A stretch of 64,000 bases of DNA from contig NZ_PTLZ01000001.1 in assembly GCF_003293745.1 (NCBI RefSeq), forward strand, positions 558,001 through 622,000. The letters run 5' to 3'. This document shows positions 1,038-57,649 of this stretch, one piece after another. Every line of letters starts with the position of its first letter. Position 1 is the first letter of the stretch. This DNA is from Herminiimonas fonticola (GTDB taxonomy: Bacteria; Pseudomonadota; Gammaproteobacteria; Burkholderiales; Burkholderiaceae_D). The notes below the pieces were generated by a model, which saw nothing but the letters and a program-made list of their open reading frames with translations, made no database searches and had not been told where the DNA came from. The position numbers and the translations under genes were made by a program.

Positions 1038-3967
1038 CAGATGACTCCTCGCTTGTTGCTTGCCGTGCTCGCTTCGCTGGCATTGCCGGCTTGCGGACGA
1101 CGACTACGTATGGATTGATGCGCCAGCGCGACCAGGATCAACATGGTGGCGCCAACCACGACCACGAACACGCCGAGATCGAAAAAGAAAGCACTAGGGA
1201 TGTGTATTTCTCCCAGTACAGGGAAGTTGACGTGCGCCGTGTGACTGGTCAGGAAAGGATAGCCAAGCACGATCGCGCCGAGGCCGGTTGCACATGCAAT
1301 GATCAGTCCGAATGACAGCCAGCGCAGCGGCCGCAGATGCAAGTGCGATTCCAGCCAGGTCGTGCCGGCCAGCATGTATTGCACGATGATCGCGACCGCA
1401 AAGATCAGACCGGCGACGAAGCCGCCACCGGGCAGATTGTGGCCGCGCATGAAAAAGTACATCACGATCATCGCCATGAATGGCAGCAGAAAGCGCAGAT
1501 ACACGCCGGGAATCATCAGGTAACCGCTATCCACCTGTTCTGCGGGGGTTTGTTGTGCAGCCGGGTCGGTGTTGTTGAGTTGCTGCTCAGGCAGCGCTAT
1601 GCTTTCCGGTGTCGGCCGGAAGCGTCGCAGCAAGGCATAGACCGTCAATGCGACGATGGCGAGCACGGTGATTTCGCCCATCGTATCGAAGCCGCGGAAA
1701 TCGACCAGCAAGACATTGACCACATTTGTGCCGCCGCCTTCCGACAAGGCGCGCAGCAGGAAGAAGTCGCCTATGCTCGCCGGTTGCGGATGCATCAGCA
1801 CGATGTAACTGACAGCGGCAATGCTCAGTCCACCGACGATAGCCAGCGCCATATCGCGTGAACGGCGCAACCAGACTGTACGCGGTATCTGCATATTCAA
1901 TTCGCGCGGCACCAGACGTCGTGGCAGCCAGCGCAAGCCGAGCAGGATCAGCACGGTGGTCACGGTTTCCACCATCAATTGTGTCAATGCCAGATCAGGT
2001 GCCGACAGCCACAGGAAGGTCATGCTGACTACCGCGCCAGTGCCGCTGATCAGAATCAAGGCGGCAAGACGGTGATACTTGGCTTGCCACGCGGCGGCAA
2101 CTGCGCAGGCGCAACCGATCAACCACATCATCGCGAACAGTGGATCAATGTCGGCCAGCGATGCCGCAGCCAATGTTGGTAATGGCCTGACGAGTAAAAG
2201 CGGCACTGCAATCATCGCAACTATTATCAAGAATAATTGCGGTTGCAGGCGGCGCGTGCCCAGCCATTTCACCAAAAATGCGGAGCCGGACGCCAAGCGC
2301 AGCATGGTGCTTTCGTAGGCTTGCGCACCGCTCAGTCCGTGAAATACCGGTACGCGATCGCGCGACTGCAGCGTAAAGTATTTACGCAAAATGACATACA
2401 GCAGCACGCCACCGGCGAGTGCGGCAAAGCTCATGGCCAGCGGCAGGTTGAAGCCGTGCCACATTGCCAGATCGTAGACTGGCGCCCGTTCGCCCAGCAC
2501 CGATAACACTGCGCTATCCAGAAACGGTTTGATACTGAGGGCTGGAGCAACGCCGACGATCAGGCAAAGCAGTACCAGACACTCAACCGGGAAGCGCATC
2601 CAGCGCGGCGGTTCGTGCGCGGTCTTGGGTAAATCCGCCGACAGTTTGCCGAAGAACACACTGATAAAACGCAAGGAATAGGTCACGCTGAAAATGCCCA
2701 TCGCGAGGGCGGCATACGACATCCACCAGCTTTCCGTGCCACCGACCAAAGCGGTTTCGGCAAAGAACATTTCCTTGGAAAGAAAACCGTTCAGCAAAGG
2801 CACGCCCGCCATCGCCGCGCTGGCGACAATGGCCAGCGTCGCCGTAATAGGTAATGCATGCCGCAATCCGCGCAGGATACGCATATCGCGGGTGCCGGTT
2901 TCATGGTCGATGATGCCGGCCGCCATGAAGAGCGAGGCCTTGAAAATCGCGTGATTCACAGTGTGGAAAATTGCCGCCACCATGCCGAGCGGTGAACCTA
3001 TGCCCAGCAATACCGTGATCAAGCCAAGATGACTGATGGTGGAATATGCCAGCAAGCCTTTCAAGTCATGCTGAAAAATCGCGACAAAAGAACCGAGTAA
3101 CAGCGTGCAGACGCCGGCACCGGCGATGATCCACATCCATTCTTCGGTGCCGGACAAGGCCGGCCAGAATCGCATCAGCAGGAACACACCGGCTTTTACC
3201 ATCGTCGCCGAATGCAGATACGACGAGACCGGGGTAGGCGCAGCCATCGCATGCGGCAGCCAGAAATGGAAGGGAAATTGCGCACTTTTCGTCAATGCGC
3301 CCAGTGCCACCAGTATCAATGCAGGCAAATACAAGTCGTGCGCGCGAATAAGGTCGCCGGCCTCGAGCACGGTATCAAGATCATAGCTGCCGACGATATG
3401 GCCGATGATCAGTACGCCGCACAGCAGGCACAGACCGCCGGCGCCGGTAACCGTGAATGCCATGCGTGCGCCGCGTCGCGCATCGATACGGTGATGCCAG
3501 TAACCGATCAGCAAAAAGGAGGTAATGCTGGTCAGCTCCCAGAACACCACGAGCTGAATCAGATTGCCGGATAAGACAACACCCAGCATGGATCCCATGA
3601 ACGCCAGCAGGAAAGAAAAGAAGCGCGGCACCGGATCTTTCGGCGACATGTAATAGCGCGCATACAGCACGACCAGCAAGCCTACGCCTAGCACCAGCAT
3701 AGAGAACAGCCACGCCAGCCCATCCATGCGCAACATGAATTCGACACCGAAGGCTGGCATCCATGCCGCTTGATAACGCACGATTTCGCCGGCTCCGACT
3801 TGCTGATACAGGTAGGCAGATCCCAGCAGACCGAACAAGGAGATGCCAGCGGCCAGTATAGATACACGATTGCGGGCGTTGGCCGGCATGCATGCGGCGA
3901 TCACGCTGCCGATGAAGGGCGCGATGACGATGGCGAGTAGCAATATGGCTTCGGGAATTCTGTACAT
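1037..3967 (-). CDS. mrpA: Na+/H+ antiporter subunit A fused to subunit B
   Basis: 976-residue multi-spanning membrane protein. Residues about 1-790 are MrpA: a NuoL-like proton-antiporter core with HFWLPHAMAAPTPVSSYLHS near residues 233-252, then the MrpA C-terminal helices. Residues about 820-950 are MrpB, recognisable by FMRGHNLPGGGFVAGL. This A-B fusion is the usual form in proteobacterial Pha/Mrp group 2 operons, whereas Bacillus has separate A and B genes. A proline- and glutamine-rich linker joins the halves near residue 800. It is the first gene of the operon and continues directly into mrpC. Confidence 0.93.
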   Translation of the reverse strand: MYRIPEAILLLAIVIAPFIGSVIAACMPANARNRVSILAAGISLFGLLGSAYLYQQVGAGEIVRYQAAWMPAFGVEFMLRMDGLAWLFSMLVLGVGLLVVLYARYYMSPKDPVPRFFSFLLAFMGSMLGVVLSGNLIQLVVFWELTSITSFLLIGYWHHRIDARRGARMAFTVTGAGGLCLLCGVLIIGHIVGSYDLDTVLEAGDLIRAHDLYLPALILVALGALTKSAQFPFHFWLPHAMAAPTPVSSYLHSATMVKAGVFLLMRFWPALSGTEEWMWIIAGAGVCTLLLGSFVAIFQHDLKGLLAYSTISHLGLITVLLGIGSPLGMVAAIFHTVNHAIFKASLFMAAGIIDHETGTRDMRILRGLRHALPITATLAIVASAAMAGVPLLNGFLSKEMFFAETALVGGTESWWMSYAALAMGIFSVTYSLRFISVFFGKLSADLPKTAHEPPRWMRFPVECLVLLCLIVGVAPALSIKPFLDSAVLSVLGERAPVYDLAMWHGFNLPLAMSFAALAGGVLLYVILRKYFTLQSRDRVPVFHGLSGAQAYESTMLRLASGSAFLVKWLGTRRLQPQLFLIIVAMIAVPLLLVRPLPTLAAASLADIDPLFAMMWLIGCACAVAAAWQAKYHRLAALILISGTGAVVSMTFLWLSAPDLALTQLMVETVTTVLILLGLRWLPRRLVPRELNMQIPRTVWLRRSRDMALAIVGGLSIAAVSYIVLMHPQPASIGDFFLLRALSEGGGTNVVNVLLVDFRGFDTMGEITVLAIVALTVYALLRRFRPTPESIALPEQQLNNTDPAAQQTPAEQVDSGYLMIPGVYLRFLLPFMAMIVMYFFMRGHNLPGGGFVAGLIFAVAIIVQYMLAGTTWLESHLHLRPLRWLSFGLIIACATGLGAIVLGYPFLTSHTAHVNFPVLGEIHIPSAFFFDLGVFVVVVGATMLILVALAHQSIRSRRPQAGNASEASTASNKRGVI

Positions 3968-4959: not shown

Positions 4960-6816
4960 ATGCTGGGTTGGTTTGAGAAATTGTTGCACCCGTATCAGGA
5001 AGAAGTGCCGGCGACACCGCCGCGCAGCTTCATTGCATTTGTATGGGCTTGCACGAAAGGTGCGCGACGCTACATCCTGGCGATGACGGTGGTCACAGCT
5101 GCGACCGGTGCATTCGAAGCATTGTTGTTCGCGATGATGGGCCGCATTGTCGATTGGTTGGCGCATGTGGAACCGACGTTGTTGTGGAAGCAGGAAGGCG
5201 ACAATCTTTTGTGGCTGGCTGCCATCGTCATGCTGAGCGTGGTGCTGGTTGCGTTGCAGACTTTTTTCAAGCATCAGACGCTGGCTGGTAATTTTCCTAT
5301 GCAGTTGCGCTGGAATTTCCACCGGATGATGCTGAATCAAAGCATGGGCTTTTATCAGGATGAGTTTGCCGGTCGTGTCGCGGCCAAGGTGATGCAAACC
5401 GCGCTGGCTGTGCGCGATGTGTGCATGATCACCGGTGACATTCTGGTGTTCGTGCTGATTTATTTCGTCACGCTGGTCAGCGTAGTCGGTAGTTTCGATC
5501 GCTGGCTGCTGGTGCCGTTTTTGAGTTGGGCATTTTTCTATTTATGCACCTTGCGTTATTTCGTGCCGCGTCTGAGCAAGGTTTCACGCAAGCAGGCCGA
5601 TGCGCGGTCACTGATGACAGGCCGTATCACCGATGCGTATACCAACATCAGCACCGTCAAACTGTTTTCGCACGCTGGCCGCGAAGCCGGTTATGCACGC
5701 AGCGCGATGCAGGAATTCATGGTCTCTGTGCATGGTCAGATGCGTTTGGTCAGCGGTTTTGAAATCGTCAACCACAGTCTCAGCATGTTGCTGATACTCG
5801 GTACTGCCGGCGTCGCGTTATGGCTATGGACGATGGATCAAATTGGTGTCGGTGCAGTCGCTGCCGCGACGGCGATGGCCTTGCGTTTGAACGGCATGTC
5901 GCATTGGGTGATGTGGGAAATGGCATCCCTGTTCGAGCAGGTTGGTACTGTACAGGACGGCATCAATACACTGTCACGTGCACACACGGTGACCGATGCC
6001 GCGGATGCTGCGCCCTTGAAGGTAGTCAAAGGTGAATTGACCTTTGAGCAGATCGGCTTTGCGTATGGCGGCACGCGGTCGGTGATCGATCATATGGATT
6101 TGACCATTCGTGCAGGTGAGAAGGTCGGCCTGGTCGGTCGTTCCGGCGCGGGAAAATCGACGATCGTTAATCTGCTGCTGCGTTTTTACGATCTGGAATC
6201 AGGCCGCATTCTGATCGATGGACAGGATATTGCGCACGTCACGCAAAACAGTCTGCGTGCGCAAATCGGCATGGTGACGCAAGACACCTCACTATTGCAT
6301 CGCTCGGTACGTGACAATATTTTGTACGGTAGGCCCGATGCCAGCGATGCCGACATGATAGATGCGGCGAAGCGCGCAGAGGCGCACGATTTCATCCTGA
6401 ACTTGAGCGATGCAAAAGGCCGCACCGGCTATGACGCTCACGTTGGTGAACGCGGCGTCAAATTATCCGGCGGCCAGCGGCAACGGATTGCGATTGCACG
6501 CGTGATGCTGAAGGATGCGCCGATTCTTTTGCTGGATGAAGCGACCAGCGCACTCGATTCGGAAGTCGAAGCGGCGATCCAAACCAGTTTGTACGAACTG
6601 ATGGAAGGCAAAACCGTGGTGGCGATTGCGCATCGCCTGTCGACGATTGCGGCGATGGATAGATTGATCGTGCTGGATAAGGGGCGCATTGTCGAGCAGG
6701 GTTCGCATCGCGAGTTGCTGCAACAGAATGGCTTGTATGCGCGCTTGTGGGCGCATCAGAGTGGCGGCTTCCTCGGTGAGGAAACGGATGACGATCAACT
6801 GGTTGGCGCTGCTTGA
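4960..6816 (+). CDS. ABC exporter, fused membrane and ATPase domains
   Basis: 618 residues from the ATG at 4960, which has GGAG six bases upstream; an in-frame TTG at 4921 has no such site. The N-terminal half holds about six membrane helices. The C-terminal ATPase has Walker A GRSGAGKST, signature LSGGQ, Walker B ILLLDEATSALDS and switch AIAHRLST. It is a half transporter that should act as a homodimer in the inner membrane, of the MsbA/multidrug exporter type. The substrate cannot be deduced. It stands alone and ends at a strong terminator. Confidence 0.88.
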   Translation: MLGWFEKLLHPYQEEVPATPPRSFIAFVWACTKGARRYILAMTVVTAATGAFEALLFAMMGRIVDWLAHVEPTLLWKQEGDNLLWLAAIVMLSVVLVALQTFFKHQTLAGNFPMQLRWNFHRMMLNQSMGFYQDEFAGRVAAKVMQTALAVRDVCMITGDILVFVLIYFVTLVSVVGSFDRWLLVPFLSWAFFYLCTLRYFVPRLSKVSRKQADARSLMTGRITDAYTNISTVKLFSHAGREAGYARSAMQEFMVSVHGQMRLVSGFEIVNHSLSMLLILGTAGVALWLWTMDQIGVGAVAAATAMALRLNGMSHWVMWEMASLFEQVGTVQDGINTLSRAHTVTDAADAAPLKVVKGELTFEQIGFAYGGTRSVIDHMDLTIRAGEKVGLVGRSGAGKSTIVNLLLRFYDLESGRILIDGQDIAHVTQNSLRAQIGMVTQDTSLLHRSVRDNILYGRPDASDADMIDAAKRAEAHDFILNLSDAKGRTGYDAHVGERGVKLSGGQRQRIAIARVMLKDAPILLLDEATSALDSEVEAAIQTSLYELMEGKTVVAIAHRLSTIAAMDRLIVLDKGRIVEQGSHRELLQQNGLYARLWAHQSGGFLGEETDDDQLVGAA

Positions 6817-54226: not shown

Positions 54227-55095
54227 GACGCGGCCTGGTCTTGGTCGGATGCAGTAACTTCATCTGGTGCAGCGACGCCGGCAGGAATCTTGTAGTGGTT
54301 ATAGCTCCAAAAATATTGTGCCGGACAAAGTGAGATCAGCTGTTCCATCGCGGTATTAATCGCGCGCACCTGCTGTTGCGGTGTCAATTCTGCTGCCATG
54401 CTGAACGGTAGAAAATGCAGGGTGTATCCCTTGCCGCGCGGCAAACGCTCTGCGAACGCGAGAATCATGGTTGCACCGCTCATTTCCAGCATCTTGGCCG
54501 GCAAGGTCATTGTGTAAGCGGGTTTGCCGAAAAAATCAGCCCATATACCTTCACCGTTTTGCGGAACCTGGTCAGGCAATAAACCGATTGCGCCATTCCT
54601 TTTCACGACTTTGAACAAGGCGCGTACGCCGCTCAGATTGGCCGGCGCCAGTGAGAGATTGTGGCGCGCCCGTGCGCCTTCGATCAGCGGCTTCAATGCT
54701 GCTTGCCGTGGTGGGCGGTACATGACGGTTAGCGGCAAGTGTGCAGCGGTAGCTTGTGCGGACACTTCAAAGCAGCCCAGATGCGGCGTCAGAAAAATAA
54801 TCCCGCGTTTGGCATCCTGCGCCTGTTGCACCAATTGCCAATTCTTTATCGTGACGGTTTTCAGTACACGCTGCGGAGAGGCGCACCAGATGAAGGGCAG
54901 TTCCATCATGTTCTTGCCGGCTTCTGCGACCGCAGCAGACAAATGATCGCCAAAGCCGGCTTGGCGAATATTGTCCTGCAAGCGGCGACGATATTGTGAC
55001 GAAGAAAGATAAACAGCCCAGCCGAGTGCGCTGCCGATTGCATGCAAGAGCGGCAAGGGCAAGAATGACAAGAGGCGGAAAATGAGAACTAGCAT
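54223..55095 (-). CDS. LpxL/HtrB-family lipid A acyltransferase (first copy)
   Basis: 290 residues. It carries the same fold as the following gene, but the catalytic motif reads HLGCFE (HX4E instead of HX4D), a variant seen in this family. The block LLPDQVPQNGEGIWADFFG is conserved. It is the first gene of the pair and is divergent from metK, with a 192-base region between them that holds the metK promoter and leader. Confidence 0.9.
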   Translation of the reverse strand: MLVLIFRLLSFLPLPLLHAIGSALGWAVYLSSSQYRRRLQDNIRQAGFGDHLSAAVAEAGKNMMELPFIWCASPQRVLKTVTIKNWQLVQQAQDAKRGIIFLTPHLGCFEVSAQATAAHLPLTVMYRPPRQAALKPLIEGARARHNLSLAPANLSGVRALFKVVKRNGAIGLLPDQVPQNGEGIWADFFGKPAYTMTLPAKMLEMSGATMILAFAERLPRGKGYTLHFLPFSMAAELTPQQQVRAINTAMEQLISLCPAQYFWSYNHYKIPAGVAAPDEVTASDQDQAAS

Positions 55096-55137
55096 GCAAG
55101 TTTTTATACTTATTCGAGCAAGCCCTTAGAAGAGACT

Positions 55138-55166
55138 TTGCCGATTTATTTCAAGAGGCGTAAAAT
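55138..55166 (+). promoter_or_regulatory. metK promoter, sigma-70 type
   Basis: TTGCCG (55138-55143), 17-base spacer, TAAAAT (55161-55166). Transcription should start near 55173, giving a leader of about 115 bases. The ten bases TAAAATAGCA are repeated exactly at 57527-57536, before the ahcY leader. Confidence 0.7.
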
Positions 55167-55177
55167 AGCACAAAGAA

Positions 55178-55232
55178 GTACCCGCCGAGTTAATGACAAC
55201 TTGCGAGGCGGTATATAAATTTCGCTAAAGCG
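55178..55232 (+). promoter_or_regulatory. SAM-II-like riboswitch aptamer upstream of metK
   Basis: A pseudoknot can be drawn as in SAM-II (SAM-alpha) riboswitches. Stem P1 pairs CCGCC (55182-55186) with GGCGG (55207-55211). Its loop begins GAGUUAA and ends CUUGCGA. An A/U-rich strand follows, then the hallmark GCUAAA (55224-55229). The loop end GCGA (55203-55206) pairs with UCGC (55222-55225) as P2, and UU (55201-55202) may pair with AA of GCUAAA. One loop base differs from the GAUUU I remember for the family. The adjacent gene makes SAM, a fitting feedback target. No covariance search was possible. Confidence 0.68.
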
Positions 55233-55290
55233 TCGCAGGTTCACTGAGTTGACCGCGACATCTAACCAACTATAGAAAGAACCTGCGATG
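55231..55290 (+). promoter_or_regulatory. Switchable helix covering the metK start codon
   Basis: CGUCGCAGGUUC (55231-55242) can pair with GAACCUGCGAUG (55279-55290): eleven Watson-Crick pairs and one G-U, including all three bases of the AUG. The same upstream strand can instead form a hairpin GUCGC-A-GGUU...GACC-GCGAC (55232-55259). The two folds exclude each other, as in a translational expression platform. Confidence 0.65.
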
Positions 55291-56451
55291 GCTAATGATT
55301 TTCTGTTTACCTCCGAATCTGTCTCTGAAGGCCACCCTGATAAGGTCGCCGATCAAATCTCCGACGCGATCCTCGATGCAATTTTCCAGCAAGATCCAAA
55401 AGCCCGTGTTGCTGCTGAAACCCTTTGCAATACCGGTCTGGTCGTTTTGGCTGGTGAAATTACAACGTTCGCCAACGTTGATTACATTGAAGTAGCGCGT
55501 CAAACCATCAAACGTATCGGTTACGACAATGCCGATTACGGTATCGATTACAAAAGCTGCGCAGTACTGGTGGCGTACGACAAGCAATCACCGGACATCG
55601 CACAAGGTGTTGATGAGGGCGCTGGTATCGACCTCGACCAAGGAGCTGGTGATCAAGGCTTGATGTTTGGTTACGCTTGCGATGAAACGGCAGAACTGAT
55701 GCCGGCTGCGATTCACTATGCGCATCGCATCGTGGAGCGCCAATCAGAATTGCGAAAAGACGGTCGCCTGCCATGGCTGCGTCCGGATGCAAAATCGCAA
55801 GTCACCTTGCGCTACGTTGATGGTCGTCCTGTTTCCATCGACACCATCGTATTGTCGACACAACACGCGCCGGAAATGCAACACAAAGACATCGAAGAAG
55901 CCGTGATTGAAAGCATCATCAAGCCTGTCGTGCCGGCTGAATGGTTGAAAGACACACGCTTCCTGGTCAATCCAACAGGTCGTTTCGTCATCGGCGGTCC
56001 GCAAGGCGATTGCGGTTTGACCGGTCGCAAGATCATTGTCGATACCTACGGCGGAGCAGCGCCGCACGGCGGCGGTGCGTTCTCCGGCAAGGATCCTTCG
56101 AAGGTCGATCGTTCGGCTGCGTATGCTGGTCGTTACGTTGCGAAAAACATCGTGGCAGCTGGTTTGGCAGAACGTGCGCAAATCCAGATTTCGTACGCAA
56201 TCGGTGTGGCAAAACCGACTTCGGTGATGGTCACCACATTCGGCACAGGAAAAATCAGCGATGAAAAAATCGCTCAACTGGTGCTCGAACATTTCGATCT
56301 GCGTCCAAAAGGCATCGTGCAAATGCTGGATCTGTTGCGTCCTATCTATCAAAAAACCGCAGCATATGGTCACTTTGGTCGCGAAGAGCCGGAGTTTACA
56401 TGGGAACGTACTGACAAGGCCGCAGCATTGCGTGCAGCAGCCGGTCTGTAA
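55288..56451 (+). CDS. metK: S-adenosylmethionine synthetase
   Basis: 387 residues starting [20 protein letters not shown]. It makes SAM from methionine and ATP. The methionine-binding loop GHPDK, the flexible loop region [13 protein letters not shown] and the P-loop [16 protein letters not shown] are conserved. It follows the putative SAM-responsive leader and ends at its own terminator. A weak ribosome-binding site (AGAAAGA) precedes the AUG, which fits tight leader control. Confidence 0.97.
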
Positions 56452-56541: not shown

Positions 56542-57486
56542 ATGTCTATCGTGAATACTGTCAGCCGCATTGTGTTTCCATTATTGGTATTGCTCGGCAG
56601 TACCGTTTCGGCACATGTTGCTGCGACCAATCCAGTTACGCCTGATAAGTCGGCCAAGCTTGATGATTGGTGTAGACGACTGGTGGTTCGCCTGCCTGGC
56701 ATCACGAATCCCATGTGCAGACGCAGTGAGTTGGCACCAACCGGCGTAAATTCCCTGCAGGGTTTTCCTTTGCTGGCGCGGCAAATTCCTGCCCTTAAAA
56801 GTGAAGGTCATACGCATCCGCCATTACGTGTGTTGTTGATGGGCGGCATACATGGCGATGAATTGACTTCTGTCTCTATCGTTTTTCGCTGGCTGGAATG
56901 GATGTCGACGCCGGCTGCTCAGCATTTTGAATGGAGCGTGGTGCCTGTCGTTAATCCCGATGGCTTGCTGGCAACCAAGGCCAAGCGCGTCAATGCAAAC
57001 GGCGTCGATTTGAATCGCAATTTTCCTACTCCGGGTTGGCAGCAGGATGCACCTCGTTACTGGGCCGCCAGAACCAAAAGCGATCCGCGTCGCTTTCCTG
57101 GTCATGCGCCTTTATCCGAGCCGGAAAGCCGCTGGGTGTATGACGAAATGGCAAGGTTCCGCCCGGATGTAATTATTTCCGTGCACGCGCCGTTTGGCGT
57201 TCTTGATTTTGATGGCCCGGCACAACCGCCGCGTCGTTTCGGCCGCTTATTGCTCAATCGCGTAGGGGTTTACCCCGGTTCTTTGGGCAATTACAGCGGC
57301 GTCCATAAAAACGTCCCGGTGATCACGATCGAGTTGCCGAATGCGCAAAAAATGCCATCCGAAGCCGAGGTGAAGCGCATCTGGCTGGATATGCTGGGTT
57401 GGATAAGAGACAACGTTGAGCCGCAGGCAGAAACCGCACGCGTGCACTCGGTATCCTTGTCCAGTTCCGCGCCATTGAAAAAGTAA
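56542..57486 (+). CDS. Exported M14 zinc carboxypeptidase (MpaA-like)
   Basis: 314 residues with a signal-like N-terminus (about 1-28). Zinc and catalytic motifs of the M14 family are HGDE (zinc His and Glu), NPDG, NGVDLNRNFP and SVHAPFG, with the catalytic glutamate in VITIELPNA. Murein peptide amidase MpaA cuts the gamma-D-Glu-meso-DAP bond of muropeptides and is cytoplasmic in E. coli, whereas this one appears exported. Its relation to the SAM cycle around it is not evident. The ATG is only 9 bases after the metK terminator. Confidence 0.8.
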   Translation: MSIVNTVSRIVFPLLVLLGSTVSAHVAATNPVTPDKSAKLDDWCRRLVVRLPGITNPMCRRSELAPTGVNSLQGFPLLARQIPALKSEGHTHPPLRVLLMGGIHGDELTSVSIVFRWLEWMSTPAAQHFEWSVVPVVNPDGLLATKAKRVNANGVDLNRNFPTPGWQQDAPRYWAARTKSDPRRFPGHAPLSEPESRWVYDEMARFRPDVIISVHAPFGVLDFDGPAQPPRRFGRLLLNRVGVYPGSLGNYSGVHKNVPVITIELPNAQKMPSEAEVKRIWLDMLGWIRDNVEPQAETARVHSVSLSSSAPLKK

Positions 57487-57539
57487 TTTTCATTGCGGCA
57501 GCATGGTTTCAGGCATGTTTTTCGATTAAAATAGCAGCC

Positions 57540-57618
57540 GCATCAAGGAGCGTTGCGATAGGTCGTCGAAGCTATAGACCTACCAGGCTTGATGCAGTCA
57601 ATACCAGCAACTGCGCTC
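57540..57618 (+). promoter_or_regulatory. SAH riboswitch upstream of ahcY
   Basis: It matches the S-adenosylhomocysteine riboswitch. P1 is GCATCAAG (57540-57547) with CTTGATGC (57588-57595). The core GGAGCGTTGCGA is followed by stem P2 TAGGTC (57559-57564) with GACCTA (57577-57582), then CCAGGCTTGATG. The 3' strand GCAACTGCGCTCACG pairs back with GAGCGTTGC to form the pseudoknot. This RNA class turns on ahcY when SAH accumulates. A -10 box TAAAAT at 57527-57532 puts the RNA start near 57539. Confidence 0.92.
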
Positions 57619-57649
57619 ACGTTTCTTTTTTTCTAACCGAAAGGAGGGC

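Follow-up and report, generated by a model that had tools for sequence, protein, structure and literature searches.

Organization of the metK locus

The window analyzed, a stretch of 64,000 nucleotides from the Herminiimonas fonticola contig NZ_PTLZ01000001.1, carries the metK gene, which codes for methionine adenosyltransferase, at 55288-56451 on the plus strand (TIGR01034, 605.8 bits). The upstream neighbour of the metK leader is a divergent lipid A acyltransferase-like gene on the minus strand. Downstream, in the same cluster, an SAH riboswitch precedes ahcY at 57539-57625 (+; RF01057, 58.9 bits), about 2.3 kb from the leader element, close to the 2 kb given in the initial annotation of this DNA. 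A peptidase M14/MpaA-like gene (56542-57486; PF00246, with the NCBIfam cut-off for MpaA not reached) lies between metK and this riboswitch.

The leader element spans positions 55182-55235 (+) and ends 52 nt upstream of the metK start. It follows a promoter-like site, TTGCCG-17-TAAAAT (55138-55166, +), located 15 nt upstream of P1 and identified by a consensus match only (9/12); this site is one of three promoter-like matches in 55050-55320, where 0.4 were expected. The sequence GCGTAAAATA, or a close form of it, was found at the same place in many Oxalobacteraceae leaders.

All parts of the element lie on the plus strand. P1 is formed by CCGCC (55182-55186) and GGCGG (55207-55211), both strands being assigned from the sequence, the alignment and the tree, and it encloses the loop L1, GAGUUAAUGACAACUUGCGA (55187-55206; sequence, Rfam alignment and tree), in which G55189 stands at the place of U10 of SAM-II. 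The loop holds the 5' strands of P2a, UGAC (55194-55197; alignment and tree), and of P2b, UUGC (55201-55204; alignment), the latter being the putative SAM-site strand by analogy with SAM-II. After an A/U-rich joining strand (55212-55223), read from the sequence, come the 3' strand of P2b, GCUAAA (55224-55229; alignment and tree), and that of P2a, GUCG (55232-55235; alignment), which is shared with a competing hairpin and a start-site helix (see below). In P2b, UUGC pairs with GC (55224-55225) and AA (55227-55228) and leaves U55226, the equivalent of U44 of SAM-II, unpaired. The initial annotation had read this layout correctly, with P1, the CUUGC loop, the A/U-rich strand and the back-pairing GCUAAA; its end at 55232 falls three bases short of the end of the pseudoknot, which continues through P2a. 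A single occurrence of the pattern CTTGC-N14..40-GCTAAAGCG was counted in the window, where shuffled sequences gave an expectation of 0.05 (5 of 100 shuffles had one).

Conservation and covariation of the pairing

Among the metK loci fetched, which were the best 80 of a longer match list, 77 had the motif [GA][CT]TAAAGCG at most 350 nt upstream of metK; it was absent from this interval in L049, L051 and L085.

The window and 56 distinct short-loop leaders were aligned (A1, 57 rows). In P1 and P2, 90.8% of the cells were paired, compared with 84.5% in shuffled alignments and 33.8-41.3% when the partners were slid. Double changes were found in 66 cells, against 25.4 +/- 3.9 in shuffles: C-G was replaced by U-A in P1, G-C by A-U in P2a and, once (L072), C-G by U-A in P2b. 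For further pair types the count was 13, below the 16.5 of shuffles, and is no point in favour of the fold, and the fourth pair of P2a was without support, with 34 of 56 cells unpaired. RNAalifold, which cannot represent a pseudoknot, predicted small loop pairs without double changes on A1 and was not used. In a second alignment of 30 rows without Oxalobacteraceae (A5), 12 of them common to A1, 96.8% of the cells were paired and 37 carried double changes, against 10.0 +/- 4.8 in shuffles.

Changes were also counted on a MetK tree of 147 leaders, computed by a quick maximum-likelihood method, five of the leaders coming from outside Burkholderiales. Eight of 159 metK loci could not be parsed; the tree excludes the misread leader L045 and three repeat genomes, and includes three row pairs identical in protein and aptamer. 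The fifth pair of P1 was standard in all 147 leaders, although each of its sides had changed 12 times or more, and pairs 2, 3 and 4 changed once, twice and once, always staying standard. The ends of the helix are looser: the closing pair was non-standard in 25/147 leaders and pair 6 in 45/147. Pairs 1 and 2 of P2a were standard in 144 and 145 leaders, and pair 3 was G-C in 108, A-U in 27, G-U in 3, U-G in 2 and other in 7, with seven changes among standard pairs. When the 3' strands were taken from other leaders, P1 pairs 2-5 were all standard in a mean of 90 leaders (maximum 98) instead of 147, a comparison that leans towards pairing, the P1 register having been picked for each leader as the best one out of four offsets, and in which the shuffled control kept the registers already chosen. 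P2a pairs 1-3 were all standard in 140 leaders, compared with 112 (maximum 118) after the swap. Covariation in P1 and P2 was thus found both as double changes above shuffles in A1 and A5 and as compensatory changes counted on the tree.

Comparison with Rfam families

The initial annotation had also looked to Rfam, and here the expectation failed: RF00521 (SAM_alpha, the SAM-II family) gave 12.0 bits (E 1.9) for the window element, under the cut-off of 36. No match at E 10 or better was obtained in the window leader with SAM-V (RF01826), nor with the SAM/SAH riboswitch (RF01727), whose fold is different from that of the metK element. A minus-strand match to STnc410 (12 bits, cut-off 50) was rejected as chance. 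In the RF00521 alignment CUUGC and UCGCUAAAG are letter-identical, and GAUUU reads GAGUU in the window. None of 16 metK loci scanned had SAM_alpha at the cut-off; a scan of 20 other metK loci down to E 1 gave one match (22.8 bits) and none over the cut-off.

Covariance models were built from the leaders themselves: R1 was trained on A1, the window included, and R2 was built from A5, without Oxalobacteraceae. In searches of the genome, R2 placed the window element first, with 59.0 bits (E 4.4e-13), ahead of a metX leader (40.3 bits) and a next best match of 15.5 bits; R1 gave 80.8 bits for the window element, followed by 35.2 and 15.6 bits. The low Rfam score might suggest that a short GC-rich hairpin resembles SAM-II by chance. 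The hold-out score of R2, together with the compensatory changes counted on the tree, refutes this, and we regard the probability of a chance match as negligible.

The metX leader found in this genome holds a second SAM-II-like element, of the U10 type (G000:C1:54646-54704; L090 1501-1559, minus strand), 136 nt before metX; SAM_alpha scored it at 27.5 bits.

Distribution of the elements and their target genes

R1 matched 281 of 399 sampled Burkholderiales genomes at E 0.001, whatever the target gene, and had no match at this threshold in the other 118. The 120 loci examined, chosen from the best-scoring matches, comprised 70 metK (one 1.2 kb off), 21 MATE transporter, 16 metZ and 3 AAA ATPase genes and 10 unclassified loci, a context of methionine and SAM genes such as SAM-II has. 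Two distances stood out: that of L141, one of 82 metK matches, 1.2 kb from metK, and that of one metZ match, 676 nt from its gene.

SAM_alpha matched 12 of 20 non-metK R1 loci, with 24.8-42.1 bits, all seven metZ loci scanned being matched over the same range. Two of the 20, L171 (metZ, 42.1 bits) and L198 (MATE, 36.1 bits), passed the cut-off. So did L220 (41.5 bits), which was scanned separately.

In the class sample R1 matched 110 of 323 genomes at E 1e-4, 3 of these belonging to the order of the window, and in the phylum sample 46 of 348, 30 of these in that order. By tblastn, the 55 matches in 45 wider loci were classed as metZ (19, of which 6, at no more than 30-35% identity, could be other PLP enzymes), metK (6), AAA (5) and none (25); among the last, metF, metE and a metN-type ABC ATPase were read by eye. 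SAM_alpha matched 16 of 20 wider Pseudomonadota loci, with 23.3-36.6 bits, L243 (36.6) and L260 (36.0) being at or over the cut-off. Since other leaders matched by R1 score as SAM_alpha, the metK form grades into elements that Rfam recognizes.

A SAM-I/IV riboswitch lies upstream of the R1 element in four of ten wider loci. The distance is 30-31 nt in L213 (3450-3573 with 3358-3418, minus strand) and L214 (6360-6483 with 6269-6329, minus strand), and 370-471 nt in L215 and L222; three of these four loci have an AAA/MoxR-type ATPase gene downstream.

Two SAM-II-like aptamers stand in tandem before a MATE transporter gene in L155, L161, L170, L188, L198, L209 and L120, and several of these tandems combine a GG-type with an A-A-type loop. 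L216 has a small ORF containing MYDC between the tandem aptamers and the transporter; the small ORFs of this type in L136 and L188 had no Pfam family. Such arrangements have precedents, 44 tandem SAM-II and two cases of SAM-I/IV before SAM-II having been reported (PMC9481103).

Further observations concern single loci. The class-sample loci L242, L262 and L263 are metK leaders from outside Burkholderiales with a more canonical SAM-II of the U10 type (27.9-35.5 bits, under the cut-off) and an SAH riboswitch downstream of the leader. Genome G614 has ten R1 matches, several of them paired about 100 nt apart; in L235 and L271 the downstream ORF looked HD-domain-like by eye. Weak matches to Bp2_287 (RF02424; 21.9-30.5 bits, cut-off 70) were found on the opposite strand in L238, L247, L265, L207, L140 and L243, and this sRNA family may be an antisense reading of a SAM-II-like leader.

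The putative ligand site

The nucleotides reported as completely conserved in SAM-II are U10-U12, U20-C23 and G42-A47; the sulfonium of SAM is read by U11 and U21, its adenine by U44 and its amino acid end by A47 (PMC3764141; for U44 also PMC6061858). The window keeps 12 of these 13 (U11, U12, U20, U21, G22, C23, G42, C43, U44 and A45-A47), and U10 is replaced by G. Of the 147 metK leaders, 137 have G at position 10, 9 have U and 1 has A, the A being a shifted reading of L251, and the core is intact in nearly all, with GCUAAA in 143 and UUGC in 146.

A G-G or A-A pair was predicted in the SAM-II loop by Barrick and Breaker in 2007 (PMC2258182). Equating this pair with loop positions 13 and 18, which is our reading, we counted GG 62, AA 94, GA 2 and AG 0 among 194 distinct matches (20 unparsed, 16 with another letter), figures inflated by common ancestry. 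The homopurine preference of SAM-II is therefore present.

By analogy with the SAM-II and SAM-V structures, the adenine of SAM would insert at U55226 (U44) in P2b and the sulfonium would be read by the carbonyls of U11 and U21. In SAM-V, the U equivalent to U10 is the hydrogen-bond donor to O4 of the U that binds the adenine (PMC6061858), and G10 could serve as such a donor to O4 of U44.

The change at position 10 hits the residue that holds the adenine-binding U44 and is near-universal before metK, which might point to a different ligand or selectivity, such as tolerance of SAH or recognition of another adenosyl compound; a SAM-I variant with a changed ligand is known (PMC10853860). We consider this very unlikely: the sulfonium-reading U11 and U21 are among the nucleotides kept, a G may hold U44 as well, both G and U occur at position 10 in MATE leaders, and ahcY is already served by the SAH riboswitch. 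By analogy, we infer that SAM is the ligand.

It is also conceivable that the leader is a conserved structure with no metabolite ligand, serving ribosomal or protein-mediated control or mRNA stability, given that the metK form did not reach the Rfam cut-off in either set of loci (0/16 and 0/20). The preserved SAM-II core, the homopurine positions, the methionine-pathway targets and the arrangement with SAM-I/IV make this highly improbable.

The predicted expression platform

No terminator-like site was found in 55050-55320, and transcription termination was rejected as the mechanism; on this ground translational control is most likely.

The strand GCAGGUUC (55235-55242, +) is complementary to GAACCUGC (55279-55286, +), in the ribosome-binding region just upstream of the start codon. 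The predicted helix has 8 bp (p 0.01 against 100 shuffles), and relatives have the equivalent helices GCAGGC/GCUUGC, GCAAGC/GCUUGC and GCAGGCUC/GAGCCUGC. A competing hairpin is predicted at 55232-55259 (+), formed by GUCGC (55232-55236) and GCGAC (55255-55259) and mutually exclusive with P2a. In the two leader types, GUCGC faces GCGAC or GCGGC in 65/114 leaders and GCGUU faces AACGC in 28/32, a conservation across leaders that partly reflects shared ancestry. Shuffling of single leaders gave weak results, p being at most 0.05 for the sequestering helix in 34/114 and 9/32 leaders and for the competing hairpin in 19/114 and 1/32; the platform draws its support from the conservation.

At high SAM, P2a would form and withdraw GUCG from the competing hairpin; without this hairpin GCAGGUUC would be free to pair with the ribosome-binding region and sequester the start, so that high SAM would lower MetK. 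A comparable effect has been modelled for the Sinorhizobium SAM-II leader, which would hide the metA Shine-Dalgarno on SAM binding and lower translation (PMC9373788). From this model, repression of metK translation by high SAM is the most likely outcome.

The platform step, its sign included, is the least certain part of the mechanism. Equilibrium folding did not support the repressing model: with the P2a 3' strand blocked, the predicted openness of the ribosome-binding region fell in just 12/147 leaders and rose in 39 (changes above 0.05), and control blocks elsewhere gave 4 falls and 50 rises. Of the 99 leaders having the competing hairpin, 26 could form it at a cost of at most 3 kcal/mol relative to the best fold; on average the forced hairpin was less stable (-17.8 versus -23.8 kcal/mol), and in the window it was 7 kcal/mol worse. 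Co-transcriptional folding might settle the outcome, or SAM could act with the opposite sign.

The reverse sign would mean that the same SAM aptamer acts as an ON switch in which SAM binding opens the start site, because the 3' strand of P2a, when free, would base-pair with the start codon. Such a pairing is possible in the window between 55231-55242 and 55279-55290, covering the whole AUG, and in Comamonadaceae-type leaders (L048, L063, L075) GUUCGCC has its partner, GGCGAAC, where the coding region begins. The rise in openness in the 39 leaders would agree with this; however, blocks elsewhere raised it as often. Moreover, the AUG pairing does not extend to Oxalobacteraceae such as L012 and L014, the conserved partner of the competing hairpin would be without a role, and activation by SAM of its own synthesis is physiologically unlikely. 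An ON switch is thus unlikely, and repression by SAM remains the preferred reading.

Relation to known SAM riboswitches

The metK element shares with SAM-II (RF00521) the H-type pseudoknot of P1 and of a P2 between loop and 3' strand, here with compensatory changes in P1, in P2a and once in P2b, as well as the UUGC/GCUAAA core, the homopurine positions, the methionine-gene targets and, in our reading of the Rfam consensus, the two-nucleotide spacing that separates P2a from the core on either side. Unlike SAM-II, it has G10, a P2a of 3-4 bp, a score under the Rfam cut-off, metK as target and probably control of translation by a separate platform further downstream. Given the missing U10 and the score under the Rfam cut-off, it is not filed as a strict SAM-II member; judged by its sequence, it is a diverged SAM-II-like variant. 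Homology to SAM-II is supported by the chain of metZ, metX and other leaders, the shared core and the homopurine positions.

That the metK form is a distinct subclass of SAM-II is a tentative proposal, and one we rather doubt: it would have a rebuilt adenine triple (G10 against U44), its own switching platform and an altered affinity or selectivity, and would act as the principal feedback control of SAM synthesis throughout Burkholderiales.

SAM-V (RF01826) has its ligand site in common with SAM-II and is translational (PMC6061858); its Shine-Dalgarno lies inside P2a, whereas in the metK element that helix ends well upstream of the start codon. The SAM/SAH riboswitch (RF01727) resembles our element in its place before metK, in Rhodobacterales (PMC2864571).

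SAM-II was described before methionine genes of alpha-proteobacteria, in a text that does not use the word metK and has an alignment legend naming Bordetella bronchiseptica (PMC1273637). The view of the initial annotation that SAM-II is mainly alphaproteobacterial agrees with that description, but occurrence outside that class was already on record (PMC2258182, PMC1273637). Leyn et al. (2014) reported SAM_alpha only in Rhizobiales and Rhodobacterales, and a new metXZ RNA element in beta-proteobacteria (PMC4239095). Like the leaders analyzed here, the latter belongs to beta-proteobacterial methionine leaders with a pseudoknot; it differs in being described there with a terminator and without a ligand. 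Our metX and metZ leaders have the core and score as SAM_alpha, and we infer that they are the metXZ element.

Discussion

The proposal that a SAM-II-like riboswitch precedes metK is upheld by the covariation, the hold-out model, the chain of metZ and metX leaders scoring as SAM_alpha and the kept core. Fold, conservation and place before metK are established by comparison of sequences, and the metK-leader RNA is, on these grounds, a real and widely conserved pseudoknot related to SAM-II. It is also a widespread SAM-II-like riboswitch candidate that Rfam does not annotate. We give a probability of about 0.8 to its being an aptamer that senses SAM and acts in cis, a sister form diverged from SAM-II, most likely with translational OFF control.

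Many likely members, some of them in other Pseudomonadota, are left out by the Rfam SAM-II cut-off. As a natural U10-to-G variant, the element lends itself to the study of ligand binding by SAM aptamers.

For beta-proteobacterial metK no methionine regulator was known, and the search for one by Leyn et al. failed (PMC4239095); no paper reporting the element was among those listed in the literature searches, some of which covered the top matches. The leader is a concrete candidate for this missing regulator in a large group, as the number of Burkholderiales genomes matched by R1, all target genes taken together, indicates. Its conserved place before metK suggests control of SAM synthesis, and through the element beta-proteobacteria can probably match their production of SAM to the supply. 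If this is true, the metK element and the SAH riboswitch of ahcY would place both ends of the SAM cycle under the control of RNA in one gene cluster.
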